41,751 bases of DNA from a virus. The number at the start of each line of letters is the position of its first letter. Position 1 is the stretch's first letter. A program made the position numbers and the translations under genes. The stretch is taken from the IMG/VR virus record IMGVR_UViG_3300036398_003360, positions 1 to 41,751 of that record. The stretch is one strand, 5' to 3'. Below are positions 5,004 through 11,268 of the stretch, piece by piece. A model generated the notes under the pieces. The model had not been told where the DNA came from and made no database searches. It worked only from the letters and a program-made list of their open reading frames with translations.

Positions 5004-6770
5004 TTGAATATATCAGGTAACACCTCTAATCTTATTGAATTAAAAGCACTCGACATATTAGATAATTATTCGGGAACAAATAACTATATTCAAAAATTAA
5101 AATACCTAAAGGAATCCAATAAAAAGTTTTACCCCACTCGTTCCCAAGCTGAATATATTATCAACTATCATTCTGTTGAACCAAAGGTTGCAAAGAAGTG
5201 GGTTAATATGGAACCATATTTTGCAAACAAGATTGCTGATGAAAAAAATATGTTATCAGTACCAACTGATATTTGGGTTGAAAAGTTATTGGTTGATAAA
5301 GATAAATCATACCATATTTGGGGTAAATTTAATACTGGTGACACTCTAACAGATATGTGGTTACCTAAGGCAGCATTATTAAAAACCCATAATACAATAG
5401 AAGTTAAAATTGATTATACAAAATATAGTCACAGACCACCACTTGAACACCAAAAAACCGCAATAGAAAAATTGGTGGGTAGTAAAAGATTTATTTTAGC
5501 TGACGATATGGGACTTGGTAAAACGACTAGTACTATAATCGCAGCATTAGAAACTGATATTAAAAAGATTTTAATTATCTGTCCTGCATCCCTTAAGATA
5601 AATTGGGAAAGGGAAATTAAAAACTACACAGATAGAAGTGTATATATTTGTGAAGGTAAAAACTTCTCAACTGAACACGACTTTGTTATTGTAAATTATG
5701 ATATCATTAAAAATTTTTATGATTTAAAAAACAAAGAAAACTCCCCAATCACAAAAGGTAACTTTGATTTGGTTATTATAGACGAAGCTCATTACATATC
5801 CAATCCCCAAGCTCAAAGAACAAAATTAATTAATAGTTTTGTTAAGGATGTTGAATATCTTTGGTTATTAACTGGTACTCCGATGACATCAAGGCCAATC
5901 AACTATTATAATTTATTGAATCTAATTGAAAGTCCTGTTGCTCAAAATTGGATGGCTTATGTTATCCGTTATTGTCAAGGATATCAATTTAAGGCGGGTA
6001 ATAGAAAGGTTTGGAATGTGAATGGGGCGTCAAACTTGGAAGAGTTAAGAGATAGGACATCAAGACAAGTTTTAAGAAGATTAAAAGAGGATGTACTAGA
6101 TTTACCTGAAAAGATTATTACCCCAATCTATCTTAGATTAAAATCTAAAATGTATGAAGAGTTAATGGGTGAGTATTACGAATGGTATAATAAACATCCT
6201 GATGAATCGAGGTCTTTAACAGTTCAGTTTAATAAGTTGATGAAAGTTAGACAAGTAATTGCTGAAGAAAAAATATTGAATACAATTGAGGTTGTTGAAA
6301 ATATTTTGGAACTTGGTAAAAAAGTTATCATATTCACAAACTTTACAGATACTCTACATAAGATTCATTCTCACTTTGGAAAGAAAGCTGTTTATTTGGA
6401 TGGAACTTGCTCAAAGGTTCAAAGACAATACGCTGTTGACCAATTCCAAGATAACGATAAGGTTAAAGTTTTTGTTGGGAACTTACAAGCTGCAGGAGTT
6501 GGTATTACATTAACTGCAGGTGAAGCTGTTGTATTTAATGACTTATCTTTTGTCCCCGCACATCACCAACAAGCTGAGGATAGAGCCTATAGATATGGTC
6601 AAAAGAATTGTGTTTCAGTCTATTATCCATTATTTGATAATACGATTGAAGGTGTTATCTATGATATGTTGATTAATAAAAAGAATGTTATTGATACTGT
6701 TATGGGTGATAATATTGATAGAGCGGAGTTCATTGAGCAAATTATGAACAAGATTAATTCTGTTCGTTAA
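5004..6770 (+). CDS. SNF2-family DNA helicase/translocase
   Basis: This is a superfamily 2 ATPase of the SNF2 class, acting on double-stranded DNA during phage replication, recombination or fork remodelling. Visible motifs are Walker A DDMGLGKT (167-174), DEAH box (260-263), LTGTP motif III (289-293) and motif VI QAEDRAYRYGQ (523-533). An extra N-terminal domain of about 140 residues precedes them. The full length and spacing resemble HepA/SMARCAL1-type phage helicases. The start is unusual: the frame opens after a stop at 4992, and its first conventional start is TTG 5004. The next in-frame ATG is at residue 69, and the region before it reads like real protein. An ATG at 4988 lies in another frame and would join this one if one T were missing from TTTT at 5002-5005. 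Confidence 0.92.
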   Translation: MNISGNTSNLIELKALDILDNYSGTNNYIQKLKYLKESNKKFYPTRSQAEYIINYHSVEPKVAKKWVNMEPYFANKIADEKNMLSVPTDIWVEKLLVDKDKSYHIWGKFNTGDTLTDMWLPKAALLKTHNTIEVKIDYTKYSHRPPLEHQKTAIEKLVGSKRFILADDMGLGKTTSTIIAALETDIKKILIICPASLKINWEREIKNYTDRSVYICEGKNFSTEHDFVIVNYDIIKNFYDLKNKENSPITKGNFDLVIIDEAHYISNPQAQRTKLINSFVKDVEYLWLLTGTPMTSRPINYYNLLNLIESPVAQNWMAYVIRYCQGYQFKAGNRKVWNVNGASNLEELRDRTSRQVLRRLKEDVLDLPEKIITPIYLRLKSKMYEELMGEYYEWYNKHPDESRSLTVQFNKLMKVRQVIAEEKILNTIEVVENILELGKKVIIFTNFTDTLHKIHSHFGKKAVYLDGTCSKVQRQYAVDQFQDNDKVKVFVGNLQAAGVGITLTAGEAVVFNDLSFVPAHHQQAEDRAYRYGQKNCVSVYYPLFDNTIEGVIYDMLINKKNVIDTVMGDNIDRAEFIEQIMNKINSVR

Positions 6771-6781
6771 TATTTATGAGA

Positions 6782-6793: not shown

Positions 6794-9412
6794 ATGGAAA
6801 GAGCAGCAAATTTACTTAAAGAAATAATATTAACTAAAGAAGATATATTATCTGAAGCAAAAAAAATTGGTATTGATAAATTACCATTTGGATATCGTTC
6901 AATTAGTAGTTTCATCGATGGAAAAACGATGGATATACATTACAACAAACATTATAAAGGTTATGTTGATAAATTGAATAAAGCCTTATCTAAAAAGAAC
7001 TATGGTGATGTTGAATTGGAGAACATTATTAAATCCATTTCGAAGTATAATAAAACAATAAGGAATAATGCTGGTGGTGCTTTTAATCATGCTTTATTTT
7101 GGAAAATGTTGTCCCCAAAAAAACAAGAAATACCAACTGAGATAAAAAACAAAATTATTAAAGATTTCGGTTCAATTAATACATTCAAAAAAGAATTCAC
7201 CGAAATAGCAAAGGATAGATTTGGTTCAGGTTGGTGTTGGTTAATATTGACAAAAAACAACAGACTTAAAATTATGTCAACACCCAACCAAGACAATCCA
7301 CTAATGAACATAGTTGATGGGGGTGGATTTCCTATTCTTGGTCTTGATGTATGGGAACACGCATATTATCTCAAATATCAAAACAAAAGAGATGAATATA
7401 TTGAAAATTTTTGGGATGTTGTCAATTGGGAGTTTGTTAATAAATTATATACAGATAAAAAGAAAACTAAGTTAACTGAATCAGTTAAAACTAAAAAATT
7501 AATCAAAGAAGAAGTTGAGGTATTAAACCCAAACGGAAGACTAAATCCTATTTTTGTTCAAACAATATTGAAGAAAGTTTATCCAAAATGTTCTCCTGAA
7601 ATTATTAGGGATTACAATCCTGATACTCGTATTGAATCACCTTGTTATGGTAAAATCCAAACTGAGTTATGTAAAACAAACTATGGTGTTATTGGTGGAA
7701 AATATGCTGTAAGTCAAAGGGGTGGAACTGGTGAATGGTCGGTTGTTAATTGGTTTGATGCTAACACTCGAATTAGTGATAAGATATTAGAGTTTTATGA
7801 AAAATATAATAGTAAAAACTATGATTTGGAAACTTGGTTTAATATTATGGGAAAAACTCTGTTTGGTGATGAGGGAAAGTTTACCAATAGTTTGGCAAAT
7901 ATAGTTTTAAATCCAAAAACAAAAAAAGGAACTTTGGATAGAGGTATTGAAAGGGAAAAAATTGCGATTGAAATATTCAACACTAAAAACAAAAATTCAC
8001 AAATAACACAATTTTGTGATGGTGATACAAGGGACAAGTATAAAGGACAAGATATGTTTGTAACCGAAGATGGTGTAAGTAAATACGTTCAGGTTAAACC
8101 AACTACGGATTTATATGAAACGAGGGACAAACAAGGTAATACTATCTATATCTTCAAAAGTAAAAATGTATATAATACAAATAATATTCAAATTTTTGCA
8201 TTTGTTGATGATAAAAATAACTATATATTTTTTGATTTTAATGAGGTTGATATTGAGGATGGTGGAACACAATCAAAAGAAAGATATTCTTACGTTTTTA
8301 ATTCAAAAAATAAAAAATTCCAATCCCAATTTTTAAAATTAAAAAAAATTAACATTACTGAAAATATGAACTCAACAATAATAATAACTAAAGAACAAGC
8401 TCAAATAATGAATTTTTTAATATCCGAGGACATTAAGATTAATAATAATCAGTTAGATATTAATAGTATCATTAAAAGAGAATTACAAAAGTTAAGACCT
8501 ATTCCCACTGAAATGAATGCGGCTAAAGAAGCAATTAATAATATTGTAACAGCTGAAATAAGTCGTGGTAAGTTAAATTTTAGTAGAACAATTGATTCTT
8601 TATTTAATTTAAACTTATCAACAGTTTCGGACAGAAATAAATATAGGTTCAATAACTACTATTATAGATTTTATAGAAGTAGAACGAGAGGTTTAGATTT
8701 TGAAGGTTTAATTTCCGGTTTAATTGATGGAGATATTTCTGAAGACATTAATTCTCCATATGATTTGATTACAAAAGATGGAAAAAAAATATCTATAAAA
8801 ATAGTAAGAAATTTAAGTGAAAGTCCTGTATTGAAATCAGCAAAAGGAAATATACAAAGTTTTATCGAGAATTATAATGGTTCTGATGAAAACAAACAAA
8901 TGTTGATTACACAAGCAAAAAATGAAAATCTTCTAAGTTTTTTAATAAGTTCGGGTAACAACGATTATATAAATATTGCTGAGGATTTAGTTGATTTCAT
9001 ACTACCTGACATTGATGGATTATTAATCGGTGTTCCCAACGAGAATTTTAACATCGACTTATTTTATTTTGACAGAGAGGGAATTAAATCGTTGGCTTTA
9101 GAACCTGGTAATTTAGGTGCACCAAAAACCAAAGGGTCACAACAGATTAGATTCAAAAAATCAGTTTTCCAAAAAACACCAAGTGAAGGAAATAGATTGG
9201 TTGGAAAAATATATTTCCCAATAATCTCAGAACAAGAATATATTGATTTTTTAGTTGGTAATGAAAAAACAAAAGAAACATTATCATTACTTAATCGTTT
9301 TGGGAGTAAGTACAACATAAGAAACTTAGGTGGTAATATACCACAAGATATTATCCATAGTTTGTCTGACAACGAAAACTTCAAACAAGACATACTTAAT
9401 TTGTTGGATTGA
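6794..9412 (+). CDS. Superoxide dismutase (Mn-type) fused to two nuclease-like domains
   Basis: This is an 872-residue multidomain protein. Residues about 28-222 are a complete Fe/Mn superoxide dismutase, the enzyme that converts superoxide to oxygen and peroxide. Metal ligands are H49, H99, D185 and H189 (DVWEHAYY), with gateway Y57. NNAGG before NHALFW and Q166 in STPNQD point to the Mn type. A Lys/Glu-rich linker with KLTES...KKLIKEEV follows (226-243). Residues about 340-520 look like a PD-(D/E)XK nuclease with a Gln variant: E386/E388, D420 and QVK (433-435). Residues about 595-680 resemble a second, degenerate copy (E637, D657, SIK 667-669). The start is taken at ATG 6794 because of the upstream motif; ATG 6776 would add six residues. 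The SOD call is firm, the nuclease calls are inference, and residues 250-340 are unrecognised. Confidence 0.88.
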   Translation: MERAANLLKEIILTKEDILSEAKKIGIDKLPFGYRSISSFIDGKTMDIHYNKHYKGYVDKLNKALSKKNYGDVELENIIKSISKYNKTIRNNAGGAFNHALFWKMLSPKKQEIPTEIKNKIIKDFGSINTFKKEFTEIAKDRFGSGWCWLILTKNNRLKIMSTPNQDNPLMNIVDGGGFPILGLDVWEHAYYLKYQNKRDEYIENFWDVVNWEFVNKLYTDKKKTKLTESVKTKKLIKEEVEVLNPNGRLNPIFVQTILKKVYPKCSPEIIRDYNPDTRIESPCYGKIQTELCKTNYGVIGGKYAVSQRGGTGEWSVVNWFDANTRISDKILEFYEKYNSKNYDLETWFNIMGKTLFGDEGKFTNSLANIVLNPKTKKGTLDRGIEREKIAIEIFNTKNKNSQITQFCDGDTRDKYKGQDMFVTEDGVSKYVQVKPTTDLYETRDKQGNTIYIFKSKNVYNTNNIQIFAFVDDKNNYIFFDFNEVDIEDGGTQSKERYSYVFNSKNKKFQSQFLKLKKINITENMNSTIIITKEQAQIMNFLISEDIKINNNQLDINSIIKRELQKLRPIPTEMNAAKEAINNIVTAEISRGKLNFSRTIDSLFNLNLSTVSDRNKYRFNNYYYRFYRSRTRGLDFEGLISGLIDGDISEDINSPYDLITKDGKKISIKIVRNLSESPVLKSAKGNIQSFIENYNGSDENKQMLITQAKNENLLSFLISSGNNDYINIAEDLVDFILPDIDGLLIGVPNENFNIDLFYFDREGIKSLALEPGNLGAPKTKGSQQIRFKKSVFQKTPSEGNRLVGKIYFPIISEQEYIDFLVGNEKTKETLSLLNRFGSKYNIRNLGGNIPQDIIHSLSDNENFKQDILNLLD

Positions 9413-9434: not shown

Positions 9435-10556
9435 ATGTCTATAATTCCTGAACCAGATAGAACCCAACTTTACACTAAATTGAGACATCTTTTAGGTGCA
9501 CCACTAAGGGCTGTGGAATTGGAAGATGAAATGTTAGATTCTTTATTAGAACTATCTATTGAGGATTATGCTCAATACGTACAAGATTGGTTAATTGAAT
9601 CACAATGGACTTCACTATATAACTTAAACTTAGATACTGAATCTTTAACCAAAGCATTCATAACTAAAGATTTAAAGTTCGAGGAAAGATATACTTATGC
9701 TTATTCTAAAATTGTTGGTTTACAAGCAGGTGGAGATTCTGTAATGAAAAAGGACTATATACAACTTGTACCTGGTCAACAAATTTATGAGATACCAGCA
9801 GGTCGTGAATTAAATGAGCTATTATGGTTTACACCATCAGAACTTAATAACTTACTATTTGACCCTTGGACATTTGGTGCTTTGGGTGGTGTTGGTTTAG
9901 GTGGCCCCGCGGGTTATTCTCAAATGGGTTACTCAGGTTCATACTTTATGATGCCAGCATTCGATATGTTATTAAGAATGCAAGAAATTAATATTCAAAG
10001 AAGAATTATTGCAGGTGACTTAACATACAGAGTAACGGCTTTACCTGAAGGTAAAAAAGCAATCCATTTAATGCAAACACCAGGTGGTAAATTTGACTTC
10101 GGTAATGCAACTTTAATGAGAGGTAAAGTTTGGTATTGGTATTATGAAGTTGATGGTGCAGACAGAGATGATTGTTTAAAGAAAAATCCTGATATAATTA
10201 GATTACCATCTGATGTTCCACTAGAAAAGATTAGTTGGATTGATTTAAATAATCCTGCCCAAATATGGGTTCGTAAATGGTTTTTTGCTTATGCTAAAGA
10301 GGCCTTGTCTAGAGTTAGAGGTAAGTTTAGTGGTGCACTCAAAACACCTGATGCCGAACTTACATTAGAATATCAAACTTTACAAACTGAAGCTAAGGAC
10401 GAAAAAGACAAATTGAGAGAGGAATTAATTGGTGCTGAAGGTAAATTAACAAGATTAAAACCTGAAAAGGTTATGGAAAGAGAAGCATTAATAGCTGAAA
10501 ACTTAAATAAAGTAAAAAAACTTACTGCTTTACCAAGACAAATTTATGTAATTTAA
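9435..10556 (+). CDS. Probable neck/head-completion protein (T4 gp13-like)
   Basis: This is a 373-residue soluble protein. T4 gp13 is a neck protein added to the filled head to make the tail attachment site. The visible resemblance is an N-terminal helical region of the form LRHLLGAPLRAVELEDEMLD, followed by a conserved beta stretch DYIQLVPGQQIYEIPAG that is typical of phage neck and connector proteins. A Gly-rich, hydrophobic loop lies around residues 150-175. The C-terminal 70 residues are charged and helical, rich in Glu and Lys, likely a coiled coil. The adjacent helicase and SOD genes separate it from the gp14/gp15/sheath block, which lies on the opposite strand. The exact gp13 assignment is moderate; a structural virion role is likely. 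Confidence 0.5.
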   Translation: MSIIPEPDRTQLYTKLRHLLGAPLRAVELEDEMLDSLLELSIEDYAQYVQDWLIESQWTSLYNLNLDTESLTKAFITKDLKFEERYTYAYSKIVGLQAGGDSVMKKDYIQLVPGQQIYEIPAGRELNELLWFTPSELNNLLFDPWTFGALGGVGLGGPAGYSQMGYSGSYFMMPAFDMLLRMQEINIQRRIIAGDLTYRVTALPEGKKAIHLMQTPGGKFDFGNATLMRGKVWYWYYEVDGADRDDCLKKNPDIIRLPSDVPLEKISWIDLNNPAQIWVRKWFFAYAKEALSRVRGKFSGALKTPDAELTLEYQTLQTEAKDEKDKLREELIGAEGKLTRLKPEKVMEREALIAENLNKVKKLTALPRQIYVI

Positions 10557-10989: not shown

Positions 10990-11268
10990 ATGAAAAAAGT
11001 AGTAAAAATAACAGAAAAAGATTTATCAAAACTAACTAAGAAAGTTGTTACTGAACTTGAACGAGTTTATGGTCATTCAGAAATAGACAAATTGTACTCA
11101 AGACTTGGTGATGATGAAGATGTACAATTGGATGATTCATCGGGTGAGTTGTCAGGTAAAATAACAAAAAAGGTTGATATCGTTATAGATTTGCTTGAAC
11201 AAGGTATCAGAAAAAAAGATTGGGTTAAAGTATCCCGAGCATTATCGTACTTAGAGACAAAGTTTTAA
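10990..11268 (+). CDS. Small charged protein with an N-terminal ITEKDL-type motif
   Basis: This is a 92-residue protein of unknown function. It begins MKKVVKITEKDLSKLTKKVV, a short amphipathic segment of a kind that recurs at the ends of several proteins in this window. An acidic stretch follows (GDDEDVQLDDSSGE), then a C-terminal helical region (VDIVIDLLEQGIRKKDWVKV). It has its own promoter-like element and terminator, so it is a single-gene unit. A head-internal or capsid-targeted protein is one idea, based only on the N-terminal motif. There is no enzyme signature. Confidence 0.65.
   Translation: MKKVVKITEKDLSKLTKKVVTELERVYGHSEIDKLYSRLGDDEDVQLDDSSGELSGKITKKVDIVIDLLEQGIRKKDWVKVSRALSYLETKF

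Follow-up and report, generated by a model that had tools for sequence, protein, structure and literature searches.

The internal head proteins of phage T4 (IPI-IPIII and Alt) carry a short N-terminal tag with L/I-X-E sites, and L/I-X-E is given as the specificity of T4 gp21 in passages of PMC9026906. Capsid targeting sequences are described, in parts of three papers, as short N-terminal propeptides that are removed by gp21, and T4 is described there as packaging and delivering capsid-targeting fusions, EcoRI and a staphylococcal nuclease among them (PMC9026906; PMC9958956; PMC5694885). A T4 internal protein may traverse the ~30 A portal while folded, according to a passage of the first of these (PMC9026906). 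Here we analyze a gene with comparable signals in the IMG/VR virus record IMGVR_UViG_3300036398_003360, the whole of which (41,751 bases) is referred to below as the window. At positions 6794-9412 (+) it encodes a protein of 872 amino acids (aa) in which a superoxide dismutase (SOD) is joined to two nuclease-like modules, here called X and Y. We favor, with moderate confidence and on the basis of sequence features, the reading that a T4-like phage uses this protein as a polyprotein cargo of its capsid, which would be targeted to the head, cleaved there to give the SOD and the nuclease parts, and expelled along with the DNA. As in the T4 internal head proteins, there is a short N-terminal tag with L/I-X-E sites (E10 and E21), and the virus also encodes an S77 protease, a Gp23 capsid protein and a T4 portal. 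Unlike them, the protein has several enzyme modules per chain, a SOD among them, and has motifs at every border.

Polyvalent proteins form a second related class. Parts of the paper describing them portray multi-domain phage proteins with disparate activities that are predicted to be injected, as we also infer for the protein described here, and in which zincin-like peptidases are common (Iyer et al., 2017; PMC5512222); many relatives of the window protein contain an HExxH domain. In contrast, the window copy is without a peptidase domain, and we propose that it is cut by the prohead protease, which the phage encodes separately. The window protein has the sequence features of both T4 internal head proteins and polyvalent proteins, and would work like them. 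The word "superoxide" has 0 occurrences in the main text of PMC5512222, and in PMC11654794, which contains both "polyvalent proteins" and "superoxide dismutase," the latter occurs only in the title of a reference. Fe/Mn SODs also occur in other large phages (Vibrio phage 2.275.O; Pseudomonas phages PA5oct and Callisto), but there each gene is free-standing, encodes one domain (182-189 aa; 29-30% identity) and lies in a non-virion context, and the Vibrio and Callisto SODs lie outside the clade of the fusions in our tree. Cu,Zn-SOD is an enzyme class unrelated to Fe/Mn SOD. In part of a paper on giant eukaryotic viruses SOD is listed among the virion proteins, however, the structure cited there is a Cu,Zn-SOD and the viruses and hosts are different ones (PMC9405923). 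The original prediction regarded the fusion as undescribed. No description of a phage SOD fusion was found among the titles and abstract openings listed from open-access papers in PMC. The fusion is not unique and belongs to a widespread family in metagenome viruses.

The Fusion Gene and Its Superoxide Dismutase

The region 6794-9412 (+) is a single uninterrupted frame of 872 aa plus stop, with the coordinates and frame originally predicted. An alternative in-frame ATG at 6776 would give 6 extra residues, and the relative L011 likewise has an upstream ATG; 6794 is the likelier start because relatives such as L009 and L013 begin at the equivalent position. Residue numbers follow the 872-aa reading unless 878-aa numbering is stated. 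The identical 872 aa are encoded in five further IMG/VR records (L001-L005), and L009 is a full-length relative at 82% identity. A frameshift separating the domains in related genomes had been named at the outset as a result that would count against the fusion; none was found in the window, in the five identical records or in L009, and an assembly chimera or frameshift is rejected on the strength of these uninterrupted proteins. It is certain, or nearly so, that the fusion of a SOD with two nuclease-like modules is real. Relatives were taken from the best 80 of 200 matches (76 loci) together with a scan for Y (57 loci, 56 of them read), yielding 114 complete SOD-bearing open reading frames (ORFs), a total that counts the window as well as contigs retrieved twice. 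These represent 67 distinct proteins and 30 non-redundant fusions at 85% identity, so the proposed search of related virus sequences did recover the same kind of fusion.

The SOD occupies residues 28-222 (6875-7459, +) and is recognized by Pfam through Sod_Fe_C (5e-40) and Sod_Fe_N (1.2e-19), at 136 and 71 bits against cut-offs of 20.9 and 27. The best solved chain is 6gsc (1.6e-62). NCBIfam SOD[Mn] matched at 2.8e-60 with 204 bits, under its curated cut-off of 363, and PHROGs gave no match on the SOD part. In the alignment, H49, H53, Y57, G95, H99, Q166, D185, and H189 are identical in all 30 non-redundant fusion SODs; these correspond to the metal ligands, the gateway and the Mn-type positions of E. 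coli MnSOD. The four metal ligands, Tyr57 and Mn-type Gly/Gln signature claimed beforehand are thus borne out by both Pfam domains and by these positions. The active site is, as judged by sequence, certainly or almost certainly intact. The ratio of non-synonymous to synonymous substitution rates (dN/dS) is 0.03-0.07 in four pairs, and the SOD looks like an enzyme selected to work. The fusion SODs form one clade (support 99/99), close to Bacteroidota SODs but separate from 80 bacterial SODs (kept of 281 found) that are mostly from Bacteroidota and 44-55% identical; the bacterial ORFs, at 201-310 aa, are too short for modules of the X or Y type.

The Nuclease-Like Modules

Module X (residues 244-521; 7523-8356, +) is a probable PD-(D/E)XK nuclease, with the corresponding part at about 7910-8332. 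E388, D420, Q433, and K435 are invariant in 17/17 aligned X sequences, in line with the site at D420 and Q-V-K 433-435 first proposed. The predicted structural model has a predicted local distance difference test score (pLDDT) of 82, falling below 50 at residues 521-531 (model residues 278-288), where linker 2 starts. Foldseek returned I-Ssp6803I (prob 0.99, E 0.018) and Hjc (0.94, E 0.042), with no match below 0.001, and VIA-align returned SPARDA (Z 8.5, root-mean-square deviation (rmsd) 3.8, 120 aligned), I-Ssp6803I (Z 8.0, rmsd 3.1, 105 aligned) and Hjc (Z 7.7, rmsd 3.7, 110 aligned). These fold matches are confined to the C-terminal half of the module, and their scores, though modest, agree with the invariant residues. 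The dN/dS of X is 0.09-0.24 in three pairs. Residues 244-521 matched no Pfam family, and a profile search of X against the PDB gave no sequence match; an NCBIfam hit of the N-terminal half to a molybdopterin oxidoreductase (2.2e-04) was set aside as chance, with 19 bits against a cut-off of 985. The same N-terminal half (7523-7909, +) contains many residues that are invariant in 17/17 sequences (three Cys, GG and GG, WS, N, D, N). Among viral models, the X model matched UniProt A0A6J5L953 over 282 columns (E 2.9e-06). That entry, titled "superoxide dismutase [uncultured Caudovirales phage]," has 501 aa, the same length as fusions such as L038, and from title, length and model match it appears to be the same kind of fusion; because of this match the 501-aa fusions probably have an X-like domain.

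Module Y (residues 550-872; 8441-9409, +) has a restriction-enzyme-like predicted fold (pLDDT 89) resembling the type II enzymes Eco15I, 3ndh, NhoI, HinP1I, and PvuII. Foldseek gave Eco15I (prob 1.00, E 0.033) and 3ndh (prob 0.96, E 0.019). The top VIA scores are modest (Z 8.3, rmsd 5.7, 141 aligned; Z 8.1, rmsd 4.1, 162 aligned), with restriction enzymes filling rows 1-33 of 50. The fold search proposed for the nuclease regions, run on the models of X and Y, returned PD-(D/E)XK and restriction-enzyme-like folds. E637, D657, and K669 are invariant in 27/27 aligned Y sequences. The residue two before this Lys is Ser in 21/27, among them the window and every one of the 20 fused copies; in 6 of 7 aligned stand-alone copies it is Glu, as E-Q-K. 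The window's Y has S-x-K in place of a complete (D/E/Q)xK site, and because of this Ser the description of a second, degenerate site (D657, S-I-K 667-669) is apt. We would not call the window's Y an active nuclease, since it looks degenerate; the stand-alone Y may be active. The dN/dS of Y is 0.05-0.17 in two pairs. Residues 550-872 matched no Pfam family, PHROGs gave a single chance-level match (0.048), the PDB profile search gave only chance-level matches and PADLOC found nothing.

Motifs at the Module Borders

Pairs of [L/I]-x-E stand at all three borders of the window protein: E10 and E21 in the N-terminal tag before the SOD (residues 1-21; 6794-6856, +; predicted cut after E21), E229 and E239 in linker 1 between SOD and X (residues 223-243; 7460-7522, +), and E523 and E545 in linker 2 between X and Y (residues 521-548; 8354-8437, +). 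The SOD interior has zero. We compared the 30 non-redundant fusions with 2000 composition shuffles. Before the SOD there are 3.0 [LI]xE per 34-aa stretch vs. 1.41 +/- 0.17 in shuffles (n = 28 of 30; L025, in which the SOD-start pattern was not found, and L034, whose ORF as read begins at the SOD, were left out). After it there are 1.93 per 28 aa vs. 0.56 +/- 0.12 (n = 29 of 30; L074, whose ORF ends there, was left out), and inside it 0.145 per 28 aa. The observed means were reached by 0/2000 shuffles (highest 2.07 before and 0.93 after the SOD), and on these grounds a chance origin of the linker motifs is rejected. At the site adjacent to the SOD, P3 is L/I and P1 is E in 28/28; P1' is A in 6 and M in 22 of them, and P2 is free. 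Eight tag or linker comparisons in four pairs, together with linker 2 in one pair, were available for dN/dS: three gave 0.41-0.77, two were saturated and two were without changes, the remaining values being those of L057/L075 considered below.

Module Exchange Among Relatives

Architectures were assigned by motif patterns, and SOD-X-Y, SOD-X-X', Zn-SOD-X, Zn-SOD-Y, and Zn-SOD arrangements are swapped at the linkers. Zn denotes the HExxH domain, in which H78-E79-W80-x-H82 and E102-D-E-A-N106 are invariant in 15/15; against Pfam it reached no cut-off (M76 at E 0.059). A stand-alone 127-aa relative of this domain, at 38% identity and without an obvious tag, is encoded in record G008 (225315-225698, -). 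Among 40 distinct ORFs of the Y scan, 27 complete and 4 cut ones are Zn-SOD-Y, 2 are SOD-X-Y and 7 are stand-alone Y. The X scan (best 80 of 90) gave 60 distinct ORFs: Zn-SOD-X in 38 complete and 4 cut copies, SOD-X in 13 complete and 3 cut copies, and X as a stand-alone gene in 2. Additionally, L013 and L014 have two X copies, and L074 ends directly after the SOD.

Homology is broken at the linkers. L001 and L057 are common up to residue 248 and from residue 561 (878-aa numbering), L057 being without X, and L001 and L006 are common through to linker 2 and then different. The third module that takes the place of Y in L006 (7606-8730) has an equivalent in L011; both contain FEVKMM, possibly another PD-(D/E)XK site, and the L006 module had no Pfam match. 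All stand-alone X (2 distinct) and Y (7 distinct) genes found start with a [LI]xE-type motif. The stand-alone X of L305 starts MKYIFTESQLDILKNKILINE-DFTAKNFP and lines up by eye with the fused ...KTLKENVNVKKILTE-KVNQNSFP of L021, while that of L332 starts MMKFLDSLKEIILE. Similarly, the stand-alone Y of L155 starts with ...MIAESILNE and lines up by eye with the fused ...NESYLKVLLE of L160; the remaining six distinct stand-alone Y have tags like MKKIIKEN at the start. Because the stand-alone starts line up with the fused linkers, these linkers correspond to the N-termini of single-module genes.

The Carrier Virus and Its Head Genes

The identical 872 aa are encoded in the 194,498-base IMG/VR contig G001 (locus L003), where the flanking genes compared lie at a constant offset of 80,034 bases; it is a longer record of the same virus. 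Its genes include those for a Gp23-type capsid protein (1.9e-73), an S77 prohead protease (Peptidase_S77, 1.2e-22) and a T4-type portal (1.2e-77), the protease being found in 7/12 records searched, this one included. In a comparison of capsid proteins, the cultured phages nearest to it were Microcystis phage Mel-JY01 (43%) and Flavobacterium phage immuto (41%), with 53% of the query covered in both cases; neither was among the 30 records of the SOD search. The carrier is a freshwater T4-like phage whose host is probably a member of the Bacteroidota. In the window the gene is preceded by a DNA helicase gene (5004-6770, +; phrog_62, 1.1e-113) and followed by a head-tail adaptor-like (Ad2) gene (9435-10556, +; phrog_211, 1.3e-09).

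The motif is also concentrated among the head genes of these viruses. Counting ORFs of at least 200 aa, [LIF]xE[ASTN] occurs in the first 110 residues of 10/12 head-block ORFs in G001 vs. 30/104 elsewhere, and of 7/11 vs. 41/119 in G008; it is missing from portal and terminase in both. A stricter form of the motif, [LI]xEA within the first 70 residues, gives 4/12 vs. 2/104 in G001 and 3/11 vs. 6/119 in G008. In immuto, the capsid protein, protease and a core-region protein have [LIV]xE near the N-terminus. Passages of the Baltic Flavobacterium phage paper contain no mention of immuto or mass spectrometry (PMC7077304).

A single long tag common to the linkers and to the N-termini of other genes (MKKIIRLTESDL...) looked promising by eye and was rejected, as a hidden Markov model (HMM) built from 18 N-termini, with seeds from ORFs of four records, gave no real support. 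It was also negative in immuto (best 7.9 bits; 149 of 160 kb examined). A small protein at 10990-11268 (+) of the window, starting MKKVVKITEKDLSKLTKKVVTE, belongs to a gene set sharing the N-terminal tag MKKIIRLTESDLxxIIKRVIxE, and this long tag is possibly a second class of head-targeting tag. In the 194-kb record, a 532-aa acidic protein (L085:6525-8123, -) has the long tag mid-protein (312-337, 17.7 bits) and is maybe another fused cargo protein. A 370-aa protein within L118 (G007:69129-70241, +) starts MKIEEIIKNVLKEATGDSTGSRGSF (cf. the G001 gene 153405-154343), and its C-terminus bears a second full tag (26.1 bits); by analogy with what is reported for T4 Alt, both of its ends may be processed.

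Proposed Mechanism and Alternatives

We propose that the N-terminal tag, and perhaps each internal tag too, would bring the protein into the prohead core, and that the phage's own T4-type prohead protease would cut after [L/I]-x-E at the three borders. This would release a Mn/Fe SOD of normal size (about 22 kDa) together with the nuclease module X and the nuclease-like module Y, parts small enough to pass the portal and tail tube and be ejected with the DNA. Cutting a 100-kDa chain into parts would make sense because the T4 portal is about 30 A. At the start of infection the ejected SOD would remove superoxide and might, speculatively, shield early enzymes or the genome as it enters. The targets of the nuclease modules would be DNA of the host or of competitors, or else defense; an attack by X on host or rival DNA is likewise speculative. 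The original prediction offered a virion-packaged protein or an injected or early-expressed nuclease as possible roles, and the packaged and injected readings are now better supported because T4-type protease motifs lie at the borders and a head-maturation gene set is present in the same virus; the packaging itself, like targeting, cleavage, ejection and cellular role, is something we infer. More tentatively, the protein may be a modular self-packaging effector polyprotein in which the short tag serves as capsid address, protease site and joint for the fusion, swapping and duplication of effector genes. It is about as tentative that, on such a plan, one gene would supply the head with a set of enzymes ready for cutting, comprising SOD, nucleases and, in relatives, also a metallopeptidase.

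Several observations weigh against a cleaved cargo protein. The [LI]xE motif also lies inside X (E333, E442) and Y (E650, E676, E730, E813), therefore folding would have to determine which sites are used. It is a short motif that Lys/Glu/Leu-rich linkers favor, and about one third of ORFs outside the head block have its loose form near the N-terminus, so that a single motif proves little. Zn-containing relatives have no obvious tag ahead of the HExxH domain, and no protease was found in 5/12 records searched (the window included; all possibly fragments). The linkers are often, not always, fast-changing, as the dN/dS values varied, and those of L057/L075 were 0.17 (tag) and 0.07 (linker 1). Lastly, the long-tag HMM did not pick out the window linkers, its best place in the window protein being inside the SOD (1.9 bits), and over the 114 fusions its best score was 4.2 bits, at linker 2 of L011. 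It is for this reason that the claim is restricted to the short [LI]xE.

This failure of the HMM would suit an intact multifunctional enzyme that is made in the infected cell and never packaged, with SOD and nucleases in one polypeptide and the linkers as flexible spacers. The helicase upstream also fits such an enzyme, as do free-standing phage SODs that adjoin non-virion genes (ribosomal-protein-like and topoisomerase genes in the Vibrio phage; clp in Callisto). We consider it unlikely, as it leaves unexplained the conserved L/I and E at the SOD border, the module swapping there and the same-motif starts of stand-alone X and Y genes. It is very improbable that the protein belongs to the neck or tail structure and uses SOD and nuclease folds as scaffolds: the downstream Ad2-like gene speaks for it, but the conservation of the SOD and X sites in every aligned copy would be unexpected for a pure scaffold, and close relatives such as L001 and L006 differ in the third module. 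Repeated invasion of the 3' end of a phage SOD gene by selfish, homing-type nucleases, which would make the C-terminal modules mobile endonucleases, draws on the resemblance of X to the homing endonuclease I-Ssp6803I and on the differing C-terminal modules of close relatives, but is hardly credible given in-frame fusions with [LI]xE linkers kept, dN/dS well below 1 in both nuclease modules and an HExxH domain joined at the 5' side as well.

Implications

Under the cargo polyprotein reading, the new elements are a SOD among the cargo domains and border motifs for the protease that serve at the same time as joints for recombination. If this is true, effector delivery by phages would resemble a viral polyprotein processed by a capsid protease, and the border motif would provide a simple sequence rule for finding head-packaged effectors among the unknown genes of T4-like phages. 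The protein would in addition exemplify a phage SOD that is injected; the role of oxidative stress in early infection would become testable, and superoxide would, by implication, be of importance from the very onset of infection.

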